A DNA stretch of 64,000 nt, taken from NCBI GenBank assembly GCA_937928795.1, contig CALFWB010000059.1, positions 27,030 to 91,029 on the forward strand, written 5' to 3'. The notes beneath the pieces were generated by a model. The model had not been told where the DNA came from, searched no databases, and was given only the letters and a program-made list of their open reading frames with translations. Position numbers and translations under genes: made by a program. The stretch is from an uncultured Anaerolineales bacterium. GTDB lineage: Bacteria; Chloroflexota; Anaerolineae; Anaerolineales; UBA4823. Each line of letters begins with the position of its first letter. Positions within the stretch are counted from its first letter, which is position 1. Shown here in pieces: positions 18,091 to 46,357 of this stretch.

Positions 18091-19677
18091 TCATAAATTT
18101 TGCAAAATGGGCGGGATTCTTTTGCGCCATTGATCGCTTTCGGTGACGATTTCGTAGTTGCGGGCGATGCGCAAGAGCAAGTCTTCAGAGAAATCGGCGC
18201 CGATCAGTTGGGCGCCGTAGGGTAAGCCTTCGGGGTCAAAGCCGCAGGGGAAGGAGATCGCCGGAACGCCAGCATGGTTGGCGGCAACGGTAAGTTGATC
18301 AGCGAACTGCATGAGGACCGAATCGCCATAGACTTGGGCAATTGGAAATGCCGTGGTTGGCGTCGTTGGGGTTAGCAGTGCGTGTAGCCGATATTTGCCC
18401 TGGGGATCAAAGATCGCTTCAAAGTCACGGCGGATGAGGGTGCGCACGCGTAAGGCTCGCATGTAGTATTGTTCGCTATATTGGGCAGCGCTGACATACA
18501 TGCCCATCAGGATGCGCAGTTTGGGCTGCAGTCCGAAGCCTTCGCCCCGCGTTTTGCGGTACATCTCGCGTAGATCGTGGACGGGCTGTTTGGTGCGGTA
18601 GCCATACTTAACACCGTCGTAGCGATGTAGGTTGGAAGCTGCCTCTACGCGCGAGATGACGAAATAGGCTGGAATGCTGTATTTGGTGTGCGGCATAGGT
18701 ACGTCTTCAATAATGTCAGCGCCCATTTCTGCCAACCGGCCGGCGACGCGGTAGATGGCTTGTTGATAGTCCTCTGGAACAGGTTGTTGGGCGAGTTCGC
18801 CGCTTTCGCCCTCAACATACGTAATGCGAAAGTAGTCTGGCGAAAGGCCGATGCGCAAGCCACGGATGGGCTTTTCCAAATCGGTGACGTAATCCGGTAC
18901 AGGGAAATTAGCTGCCGTCGAGTCATGCGGGTCGGCACCGCTCATCACTTGAAGGAGCAGAGCGGCGTCACTGACATTGCGGGCTAGAGGCCCCGGACAA
19001 TCCAGCGAGGAACCAAAGGCAATCAGACCATAACGCGAGACGCGACCGTAGGTTGGCTTAAGGCCGACCACACCGCAAAAAGCTGCCGGTTGGCGGATCG
19101 AGCCGGCCGTATCTGTGCCGATTGAAAGACATCCTTCACCGGCCGCAACCGCAGCGGCGCTGCCACCCGAAGACCCGCCCGGCACGCGAGCTGTGTTCCA
19201 CGGGTTGCGCGGGCTAGGCCGATAGGCGCTGGACTCGTTTGAAGAACCAAAGGTGAACTCATCGAGGTTGACCTTGCCCAGCATGATCCCGCCAGCTTGT
19301 TCTGCACGGGCAACGGGCGTGGCAGTGTAAGGAGCTACAAAGTTGGAAAGGATTTTCGAGGCAGCCGTAGAAGGGGTGCCTTCAACACAAAAGATGTCCT
19401 TGACCGTAAAAGGAACGCCGGCAAGGGGCCCGACTTCCTCACCCGCTTGAATGGCTTGATCAATCCTTTGAGCTTGCTGGCGGGCGCGTTCGGCGGTTAG
19501 GGTAATAAAGGCGTGAATCTTATCTGGCTCGGTGTCTTGACCGCCGTCTAATCGCCCCGGAACGCCGTCCACCGCAGCGATGCGATTCAGGGTGCTCTCC
19601 AGCACCTCAACGGCAGAGACTTGTTTGCGCCGGATCATCCAAGCCAGTTGGTAGGCAGCGTAATCACACAGATCCAT
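18091..19677 (-). CDS. gatA: Aspartyl/glutamyl-tRNA amidotransferase subunit A
   Basis: Amidase signature PGGSSGGSAAAVAAGEGCLSIGTDTAGSIRQPAAFCGVVGLKPTYG. Confidence 0.95.
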   Translation of the reverse strand: MDLCDYAAYQLAWMIRRKQVSAVEVLESTLNRIAAVDGVPGRLDGGQDTEPDKIHAFITLTAERARQQAQRIDQAIQAGEEVGPLAGVPFTVKDIFCVEGTPSTAASKILSNFVAPYTATPVARAEQAGGIMLGKVNLDEFTFGSSNESSAYRPSPRNPWNTARVPGGSSGGSAAAVAAGEGCLSIGTDTAGSIRQPAAFCGVVGLKPTYGRVSRYGLIAFGSSLDCPGPLARNVSDAALLLQVMSGADPHDSTAANFPVPDYVTDLEKPIRGLRIGLSPDYFRITYVEGESGELAQQPVPEDYQQAIYRVAGRLAEMGADIIEDVPMPHTKYSIPAYFVISRVEAASNLHRYDGVKYGYRTKQPVHDLREMYRKTRGEGFGLQPKLRILMGMYVSAAQYSEQYYMRALRVRTLIRRDFEAIFDPQGKYRLHALLTPTTPTTAFPIAQVYGDSVLMQFADQLTVAANHAGVPAISFPCGFDPEGLPYGAQLIGADFSEDLLLRIARNYEIVTESDQWRKRIPPILQNL

Positions 19678-19680
19678 AGC

Positions 19681-19992
19681 TTACTCCAGATCCTGATGGG
19701 GAATGTCAGGAACGACGATATAGCGTTCATCCAATTCTGGAGCTTGCTTTAGGATGGCTTCAACCTGTGAACTGGGCAGCCATTCATCTTCCCGAATAGG
19801 GGGACGAATTTCGGCGGGAAAACTGACACCGTGCAGGGCTGGGGGGATGCTTTCCTGTAAGGGAATAGCGACCAGTTCCTGTAAAGCCTTGAGTTGGTTA
19901 TTGAGTTGTTGGCGTAGGTATTCAGCTTCAGTTGGGGAGAGTTCAAGGGCGGCGAGTTCAACCAAATGATCAAACAATTCAGGGGTGATCAT
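19681..19992 (-). CDS. gatC: Aspartyl/glutamyl-tRNA amidotransferase subunit C
   Basis: LVELAALELSPTEAEYLRQQLNNQLKALQEL; immediately upstream of gatA. Confidence 0.92.
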   Translation of the reverse strand: MITPELFDHLVELAALELSPTEAEYLRQQLNNQLKALQELVAIPLQESIPPALHGVSFPAEIRPPIREDEWLPSSQVEAILKQAPELDERYIVVPDIPHQDLE

Positions 19993-20063
19993 GCGCAGGG
20001 CATCTCCTTTCCTAGTGGAGAGTATATCCTAGTTTCTTAACCTGTCAATGTATTCTTTGCCCT

Positions 20064-20141
20064 GTGTGCACTCAAAAGTTGTTGGCAACATTGCTTTGTA
20101 GGACAACTCATTGAGTTGTCCTACAACTTTTGCGTGGACAC
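20064..20141 (+). mobile_element. MITE-like element, copy 1
   Basis: 78 bp GTGTGCACTCAAAAGTTGT...ACAACTTTTGCGTGGACAC; TIRs 17/19; flanked by CTTTGCCCT at 20055..20063 and 20141..20149 (8-9 bp duplication); contains 29-bp palindrome TGTAGGACAACTCATTGAGTTGTCCTACA. Confidence 0.85.
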
Positions 20142-20165
20142 TTTGCCCTTTAGCATAAAGGCAGA

Positions 20166-40634: not shown

Positions 40635-40921
40635 TTCCAGCAATTCTAAATTTGCGCACCGGTTTATCTTCTAGCAAGAAAGAGCAGATTTCCGTAACAT
40701 AGGTTTCGGCTTATGTCTCGTTTCCACAAGCTAAAGCTTATGTTACCGTCCAAGCGAAGCATATGCTACGCTTGACAAGCTGTAGCAGGCGGATTTCCCG
40801 TAACGGAGGCTTCAAGCTGATGATGGTTTGGTCAACTTGGATTTGTGTTACCTTCGCATGATTTTCCCATAGCGGATGTCTAAAGCCAGCGTTTTCAGGC
40901 CTAAATTTAGAATTACTGGAA
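40635..40921. repeat. Inverted-repeat-bounded cluster of degenerate REP-like hairpin units
   Basis: 19-bp arms TTCCAG(C/T)AATTCTAAATTT at 40635..40653 and 40903..40921 (18/19); internal GTAAC-type hairpin units at ~40687, ~40724 (reverse), ~40746 and ~40792. Confidence 0.6.
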
Positions 40922-44346: not shown

Positions 44347-44528
44347 CTTCCAGAGTCGAAAATGGGAAGTTGGAACGTAACCGTTTGTAGGCTTGCTAAT
44401 GTAGCTTTTACCGAGGTTAGCTCGCTTGTTGATTCGCAGTTAGACACTCGCGCTTCTTGCACCTATTGAGCATACTCTGCGGTTGAATTGAGTGTAGCCT
44501 AAAAGGACGGAAAACGCAATAAGACCAA

Positions 44529-44606
44529 GTATCCACGCAAAAGTTGTAGGATAACTCAATGGGTTGTCCTACAAAGCAATGTTGCCAACAACTTTTGAGT
44601 GCACAC
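44529..44606 (-). mobile_element. MITE-like element, copy 2
   Basis: Reverse complement is 75/78 identical to 20064..20141; flanked by an exact 9-bp duplication TAAGACCAA (44520..44528 and 44607..44615). Confidence 0.88.
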
Positions 44607-44782
44607 TAAGACCAATTGCGTTTTGACTCAAACCACAGTGTGATTTATACTTATTGATGTGGGCTGCGCTATTTAGGAAGTGTGCAACCCTCTACATTTT
44701 TGCCTCACTCACGTTATACTAAAGACGGGTTAGGTTTATATCGTTGAGTCAAATTTATCTGTTCTAAGAGGAGGAACGTGTG

Positions 44783-46357
44783 ATGCAAGAACAATTCAAG
44801 CTGACCTATGCCACCATGTTTAATCCCCCAGAAGAACTTCATCTTCGTTTTGATGAAGCTCTCCAAAGAGTGAAAGTGAATTTAGGAAAAGAATACGGTT
44901 TATTAATTAACAATCAAGATCACTTTACTGATGAAAAAGTTGAGGATCGTTCACCCGTCAATACGGATATTGTCCTAGGAGTCTTTCAAAAAGGTGGAGT
45001 TGCCGAAGCGCAGGCAGCCTTAAAAGCAGCTCGCACAGCTTTTCCAAGCTGGAGCCGTCTACCCTGGCAGGAACGGGTGAATACCCTGCGCAAAGTAGCT
45101 GACACAATTGACCAAAGGATTTTTGACATTGCCGCTGCTTTGTGCATGGAAGTTGGGAAAAACCGTATGGAGGCACTTGGGGATGTCGCCGAGACGGCCG
45201 ACTTGATTCGCTACGCCTGTGACCAAATGGAGAAAAACAATGGCTATATTGTCCAAATGGGCAGCGATCCGCTAGTTGGGTATAAGGCGACCAATTTCTC
45301 GGTTTTACGCCCCTATGGTGTTTGGTTGGTAATCAGTCCGTTTAACTTCCCGAGCGCGCTGAGTGGTGGTCCGATGGGAGCTGCTCTCGTTACGGGCAAT
45401 ACCGTGGTCATCAAGCCGGCTTCGGATACTCCTTGGACAGTGCGCCTATTGGCTGAGTGCTTTCGCGATGCCGGTTTGCCAGAGGGAGTTTGCAACTATG
45501 TTACCGGACCGGGGAGCACTTTGGGACAAGCCTTGATTGAAAGCGATCTTGTGGATGGTATTACCTTTACGGGTTCCTATGATGTTGGCATGAAAATTTA
45601 TCGCGATTTTGCTCAAGGTCGCTATGTGCGCCCGATTATCTTAGAGTTGGGAGGGAAAAATCCAGCCATTGTCAGCCGCAATGCTGATCTGGAACGAGCG
45701 GCGATTGGGATTGTGCGCTCGGCGTTTGGGTTACAAGGACAGAAGTGCTCGGCTTGCTCACGGGTTTATGTTGAGGAGCCGGTTTATGACGAATTGGTCA
45801 ATCGCTTGGTTGAGCTGACCGAGAAGTTAGCTATCGGTGATCCAACGGATCGGAAGGTCTATTTGGGGCCTGTGATCAACCAAAAAGCTTATCAGGATTA
45901 TCAACACTATGCCGAGGAACTCTCTCAGGCGGGTACGATACTAACCGGTGGGAAAATTTTGACCGAAGGCGATTATGGGAAAGGCTACTTTTGTGCTCCT
46001 ACGTTGGTAGCGGACTTGCCGTTGGAACATCGTCTATGGAAGCACGAAATGTTTTTGCCCATTACAACGATTGCAAAAGTTAATTCGTTGGAACAAGCCA
46101 TGCAACTAGCCAACGATGTGGACTATGGGCTCACCGCCGGTTTCTACGGGACAAAAGAAGAGGCTCAATGGTTCTTCGATCAGATTCAAGCCGGGGTTAC
46201 GTATGCCAACCGTCCGCAAGGCGCTACAACCGGTGCATGGCCGGGTTATCAGCCTTTCGGAGGTTGGAAAGCCAGCGGTTCAACGGGCAAGAATGCTGGC
46301 GGGTTATATTACTTGCCTTTATATCTGCATGAACAAATTCAAACGCTCATTGAATGA
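44783..46357 (+). CDS. Aldehyde dehydrogenase family protein (1-pyrroline-5-carboxylate dehydrogenase-like)
   Basis: ATG of GTGATG chosen. ISPFNFPSALSGGPMGAALVTGNTVVIKPA; FTGSYDVG; LELGGKNPAIV; GQKCSACSRVYV. Confidence 0.92.
   Translation: MQEQFKLTYATMFNPPEELHLRFDEALQRVKVNLGKEYGLLINNQDHFTDEKVEDRSPVNTDIVLGVFQKGGVAEAQAALKAARTAFPSWSRLPWQERVNTLRKVADTIDQRIFDIAAALCMEVGKNRMEALGDVAETADLIRYACDQMEKNNGYIVQMGSDPLVGYKATNFSVLRPYGVWLVISPFNFPSALSGGPMGAALVTGNTVVIKPASDTPWTVRLLAECFRDAGLPEGVCNYVTGPGSTLGQALIESDLVDGITFTGSYDVGMKIYRDFAQGRYVRPIILELGGKNPAIVSRNADLERAAIGIVRSAFGLQGQKCSACSRVYVEEPVYDELVNRLVELTEKLAIGDPTDRKVYLGPVINQKAYQDYQHYAEELSQAGTILTGGKILTEGDYGKGYFCAPTLVADLPLEHRLWKHEMFLPITTIAKVNSLEQAMQLANDVDYGLTAGFYGTKEEAQWFFDQIQAGVTYANRPQGATTGAWPGYQPFGGWKASGSTGKNAGGLYYLPLYLHEQIQTLIE

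Follow-up and report, generated by a model that had tools for sequence, protein, structure and literature searches.

The 78-bp repeat that occurs twice in the window (by which we mean the whole analysed stretch of 64,000 nucleotides from an uncultured Anaerolineales bacterium) is very probably a non-autonomous transposon of the ISKra4 type (p-MULT 4, prokaryotic Mutator-like), which was inserted upstream of existing sigma70 promoters by an ISKra4 transposase from the full-length ISs of its host. Judging from the flanks of its many genomic copies, insertion is not random and is aimed at a spot just upstream of predicted promoters. The element can be classed as a MITE on the grounds that it is short, non-coding and multicopy, has inverted repeats and TSDs, and is missing from the orthologous site in relatives. 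The two copies in the window and the features around them are as follows.

44529..44606, plus strand: MITE copy 2, 78 bp, one of at least 128 genomic copies
44520..44528: left TSD of copy 2, TAAGACCAA, 9 bp
44607..44615: right TSD of copy 2, TAAGACCAA, 9 bp
44529..44547, plus strand: left terminal inverted repeat of copy 2 (family form GTGTCCACGCAAAAGTTGT; position 3 is A in copy 2)
44588..44606, minus strand: right terminal inverted repeat of copy 2, GTGTGCACTCAAAAGTTGT
44544..44574: internal 31-bp palindrome of copy 2 (family form TTGTAGGACAACTCA-A/T-TGAGTTGTCCTACAA; one change per arm in copy 2)
44623..44628, plus strand: -35 box TTGACT, 16 bp beyond the right end of copy 2
44646..44651, plus strand: -10 box TATACT, after a 17-bp spacer from the -35 box of copy 2
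44780..46357, plus strand: gene downstream of the copy 2 promoter, an aldehyde dehydrogenase like L-glutamate gamma-semialdehyde dehydrogenase (NF002852, E=1.7e-133, below the curated cut-off)
44514..44519, minus strand: -35-like TTGCGT of a candidate divergent promoter, predicted from sequence, abutting the left TSD of copy 2
44491..44496, minus strand: TACACT, the -10 box of this candidate divergent promoter, spacer 17
20064..20141, minus strand: MITE copy 1, equal to the genomic consensus
20056..20063: TSD AGGGCAAA beside the right end of copy 1, 8 bp
20142..20149: TSD AGGGCAAA beside the left end of copy 1, 8 bp
20043..20048, minus strand: -35 box TTGACA, 15 bp beyond the right end of copy 1
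20021..20026, minus strand: -10 box TATACT, after a 16-bp spacer from the -35 box of copy 1
19681..19992, minus strand: gatC-like gene, the first downstream of copy 1 (TIGR00135, E=4e-11, just under the cut-off)
18091..19677, minus strand: gatA-like gene, next after the gatC-like gene (TIGR00132, E=1e-142, just under the cut-off)

The two copies lie on opposite strands and have three differences over their 78 bp (element positions 3, 24 and 34), the last two of which place one change in each arm of the palindrome. The opposite orientation, the number of differences and the single change per arm had been given correctly in the original prediction, as had the exact coordinates of copy 2 and of its 9-bp duplication. 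The element begins and ends as 5'-GTG...CAC-3', which means that each repeat carries C at its 3' end and G at its 5' end. Its left and right 19-bp terminal inverted repeats are alike at 17 of 19 positions, and the 78 bp have no coding capacity. The candidate divergent promoter to the left of copy 2 is similar in relatives, and a scan of the window with Rfam returned two tRNAs and nothing else.

A search of the host genome (3.29 Mb in 128 contigs) with the 44-nt right half of the element, allowing up to three mismatches, yielded 62 forward and 66 reverse matches. The reversed control pattern gave no match genome-wide, and the 40-nt core had none in 100 dinucleotide shuffles of the window. The consensus of the genomic copies is GTGTCCACGCAAAAGTTGTAGGACAACTCAATGAGTTGTCCTACAAAGCAATGTTGCCAACAACTTTTGAGTGCACAC. 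We read 100 distinct right junctions, 97 of them together with the left flank, and among these 97 copies the TSD is exact in 53 (8 bp in 23, 9 bp in 29 and 10 bp in one), such that exact duplications of 8 or 9 bp border 52. The TSD is near-exact in a further 18 and was undetected in 26. A few of the copies that lack a TSD have a left flank equal to the right flank of another copy (L017 with L030; L027 and L118 with L129), and these few are explained by exchange or recombination between copies or by misassembly at contig ends.

Copies depart from the consensus by a mean of only ~1.2 changes when the centre base of the palindrome is set aside, and 28 of 93 are identical to one of two forms, which together argue for a recent expansion. 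The 78-mer as such is absent from 150 relatives, in which there are partial matches only. At the locus orthologous to that of copy 2, two genomes of the same genus (G002 and G005) have no MITE, and both retain TTGACT/G-N17-TATACT at the unoccupied site; the promoter is therefore older than the insertion. It had been argued from the different 8-9-bp flanks of the two copies that the element has transposed, and this part of the original interpretation is borne out by the genome-wide TSDs and by the empty orthologous site. The same set of copies excludes the two outcomes named as fatal to it, namely a lack of TSDs and a 78-mer confined to two loci within a longer duplication. What that interpretation missed is the targeting of promoters, the family of the transposase and the variable centre of the palindrome.

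When flanks are aligned on the right end of the element, TTGACA appears 15-17 bp out, followed by a TATAAT-like box at 39-45 bp. Promoters of the sigma70-type pattern TTGACA-N16-18-TATAAT were called by a joint score of both boxes (threshold 8.5), for which the other positions in those flanks give a background of 1.4%. By this measure, 41 of 95 copies have a promoter 15-17 bp outward of the right end, where ~1.3 would be expected (p=4e-50), and 12 of 95 have one at the same distance outward of the left end (p=9e-9). The two ends differ in frequency (p=4e-6), only two copies have promoters at both, and an orientation bias of ~4:1 favours the right repeat over the left on the promoter side. About half of the copies thus occupy one precise spot just upstream of predicted promoters. 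The simple joint score recognized no promoter at either end of 44 of 95 copies; either targeting, though strong, has exceptions, or the promoter score is too strict.

Both copies in the window conform to the rule, copy 1 with TTGACA-N16-TATACT at 15 bp before the gatC operon and copy 2 with TTGACT-N17-TATACT at 16 bp before the aldehyde dehydrogenase gene. Across the genome, 65 of 79 genes to the right of a copy read outward from it, and the left-hand neighbours are divided 38:38. An 8-bp TSD goes with a spacing of 15 and a 9-bp TSD with a spacing of 16 (Fisher p=0.005). Given that the spacing follows the length of the duplication, the cut on the promoter side would be made at a nearly constant position, 7 bp upstream of the -35 box.

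The same spacing recurs elsewhere among elements that were collected by repeat similarity rather than by random draw, and in which a promoter is not present at every end. Seven elements with related repeats from other genomes in the phylum have a spacing of 14-16 bp (L219, L220, L221, L222, L232, L234 and L238). The promoter spacing of the 78-bp element is also seen at the element end in L236, at three full ISKra4 ISs (L255, L267 and L268), and at several larger MITEs of 175-392 bp in one genome (G073). A 98-bp MITE in SuakinDeep_MAG45_1, an Anaerolineales MAG, is flanked by the TSD TACTGGACG, and its left flank, when read by eye, contains TTGACA-N17-TATCAT at 16 bp. Relatives of the 78-bp element in other families have TTGACA beyond the right end, at 16 bp in one case (L214) and at 15 bp in another (L210).

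It might be proposed that insertion is random within intergenic regions and that the spacing arises later by selection, if only sites just upstream of a -35 box are harmless or useful, for example because the element delivers a binding site. Such a scenario would fit the avoidance of most coding DNA (only 11 of 86 copies overlap any ORF of at least 80 aa) and the operator-like palindrome in the element, which has two TTGTNNNACAA dyads. However, a spacing that is precise to 1-2 bp and that tracks the length of the TSD is hard to obtain by selection, and the copies, with the few changes noted above, are young. Furthermore, MITEs and ISs with other interiors share the spacing in other genomes, and insertion upstream of promoters is already known for this transposase family (PMC3942029). 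We therefore consider selection after random insertion a very unlikely source of the pattern.

Terminal inverted repeats of the MITE's type are widespread in the phylum sample, and their best link to a transposase comes from a genome of the same order (G103). This genome contains a 1491-bp IS with intact ends (L247), whose TIR GTGTGCACGCAAAGGTTGTC is identical at both ends and whose TSD is CACCACCA. Each end of the MITE is identical to this TIR at 17 of 19 positions, and the IS encodes a transposase that matches the ISKra4 model NF033572 with E=9e-58, a score just under the curated cut-off, in a frame that is broken near the C-terminus. For the transposases found with this TIR family, the ISKra4 score is far better than that of ISLre2.

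The host genome itself carries the TIR GGGTGCACGAAAAAGTTGT at three contig ends, where IS fragments are located. Two of these fragments include an ORF with a 37-aa N-terminus that aligns to the L247 transposase (BLASTP, 32% identity, E=2e-4), and in one MITE copy, located on contig 40 (L236/L065), the right end is identical to the host TIR at 19 of 19 positions. The fragments are likely to belong to a related IS, and we infer that this poorly assembled IS is the donor of the transposase. The ISKra4 HMM found no match in the host genome (G000), and the body of the presumed donor is absent from the assembly; the 37-aa N-terminus by itself matched no NCBIfam or Pfam family. Matches to this N-terminus in relatives fall inside aldehyde dehydrogenases and were rejected as chance. 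One IS fragment, at the end of contig 43 (L066), has TTGACA-N17-TAAAAT ~23 bp from its end (by eye), and a 7-bp tandem duplication between the IS end and the promoter (AGAGGCA x2) would explain the extra distance.

A transposase from a different family that recognizes similar repeats, such as the ISAs1 type represented at L241, could in principle have mobilized the element. At that locus, an ISAs1 transposase (positions 295-1519; NF033564, E=3.5e-123) is near a TIR that is broadly of this type (GGGTGTATGAAAAAGTTGT), and the genome concerned holds ISKra4 elements as well; thus TIR likeness alone is not fully specific to a family. The proposal gains from the position of this ISAs1 transposase, 67 bp inward from such a TIR in genome G557, and from the fact that the host assembly is without a full transposase between these repeats. 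Against it, the intact IS of the same order whose repeats agree at 17 of 19 positions is an ISKra4 element, the promoter spacing and the 8-9-bp TSDs match those of ISKra4/ISLre2, and the N-terminus from the host IS fragments can be aligned with ISKra4. We weighed the ISAs1 connection, judged it weaker than the ISKra4 connection, and give another transposase family little chance of being responsible.

The assignment to ISKra4 can be compared with what has been described for its relatives. TnGBS/ISLre2 and part of the ISKra4 group show a peak of insertion 16 bp upstream of sigmaA -35 boxes (PMC3942029, Guerillot et al.), produce 8-9-bp TSDs, have repeats ending in C, and use both orientations when the two repeats are nearly identical (PMC3942029). 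Every feature from that study that could be tested is found in the 78-bp element. Its resemblance to the ISKra4 group thus extends to TSDs of 8-9 bp, to repeats (~18-39 bp in that group) ending in C, to insertion ~16 bp upstream of a sigmaA-type -35 box, and to the use of both orientations where repeats are nearly alike (PMC3942029). The 78-bp element differs from that group in its lack of coding capacity, its internal palindrome, its at least 128 copies and its ~4:1 orientation bias. Like TnGBS/ISLre2 (p-MULT 3), it is inserted 15-17 bp upstream of sigmaA promoters and has its right repeat towards the promoter, although the TnGBS/ISLre2 elements are large ICEs or full ISs and occur mainly in Firmicutes.

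Short, non-coding, multicopy elements with inverted repeats and a largely intergenic distribution also include the RUP, NEMIS/Correia, ERIC and Nezha MITEs. These are moved by other transposase families, and we know of no promoter-distance rule for any of them. In the open-access papers that we searched, we found no described MITE of ISKra4/ISLre2 and none that targets promoters.

The internal palindrome spans element positions 16-46, and the whole element folds far better than shuffled versions (z about -6). In the 93 copies compared, its arms are not conserved beyond the rest of the element by any wide margin. The suggested test for compensatory changes came out close to negative, as 29 single arm changes face only one compensatory pair among these copies, which gives no support for selection on pairing. 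Likewise, the idea that decay of the palindrome could be followed from copy to copy provides no useful clock, because change in the arms is no quicker than in the remainder of the 78 bp. The centre base (element position 31) varies by far the most: 61 of the 93 copies have A there, 31 have T and one has G, with every other position showing at most 6 changes. Three pairs of copies that share two other derived changes all differ at this base. These observations suggest that the palindrome centre flips repeatedly by inversion, which alters only that base; two subfamilies subject to gene conversion would also account for the dimorphism.

Copies of the outer arms GTAGGACAACT...AGTTGTCCTAC that are not part of a full element are present in other genomes from this order, with loops that are self-complementary but varied. 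One genome (G068, L176-L213) has 27 palindromes of the GTAGGACAACTGC..GCAGTTGTCCTAC type, most without MITE ends, that resemble GTAG-tagged REPs. A reader might accordingly ask whether the repeat is such a REP, moved by a tyrosine (RAYT) transposase, and not a DDE-type MITE. The palindrome does contain the GTAG tag, several genomes from the order have it on its own, and GTAG repeats have been reported from Chloroflexi (PMC3733652). What is repeated in the host, however, is the whole TSD-flanked 78-bp unit, with the palindrome enclosed between terminal inverted repeats rather than standing alone. We consider a RAYT origin exceedingly improbable. To our knowledge, terminal inverted repeats and 8-9-bp TSDs are not expected of REP/RAYT mobility.

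A different repeat of ~281 bp is present at 40638-40918 of the window, with ends CAGCAATTCTAAATTT.../...AAATTTAGAATTACTG and flanks that form a 9-bp match with one mismatch (GCAGATTTC/GAAGATTTC). It looks like a second MITE-like family. Eight copies of the 78-bp MITE (L003, L013, L027, L045, L088, L089, L094 and L118) have the end of this second repeat (TTTAGAATTGCTG or a close variant) in the left flank, 9-10 bp before the MITE, and this gap is about one duplication length. Thus, the two repeats have come to lie at almost the same distance from the promoter downstream, and targeting may depend on the promoter side alone.

For the ISKra4-type transposon that we favour, these features can be assembled into a plausible mechanism. 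An ISKra4 transposase made by full-length ISs in the same genome would bind both 19-bp inverted repeats and insert the 78-bp DNA upstream of a pre-existing sigma70 promoter, which might be recognized through the complex of RNA polymerase with the promoter. Of its two cuts, the one nearer the promoter would fall 7 bp before the -35 hexamer and the second 8-9 bp farther from it, generating the 8-9-bp duplication. The slight inequality of the repeats would then place the right one next to the promoter ~4 times as often as the left.

For a bacterial transposase of the DDE type, aiming at promoters is a rare property. A 78-bp substrate with ~100 mapped insertions offers a clean readout of this process, in which the position of the cut appears to be fixed at 7 bp and the length of the TSD sets the rest. 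The ~4:1 bias associated with slightly unequal repeats is in keeping with a proposal from the literature, according to which orientation is set by the asymmetry of the repeats. It is conceivable, though we think it unlikely, that one palindromic site, perhaps an operator, has in this way been spread to a fixed position upstream of several dozen promoters, creating a regulon in one step, with a centre that is flipped by small inversions. The family is a natural example of one sequence set at a common distance ahead of dozens of predicted promoters.
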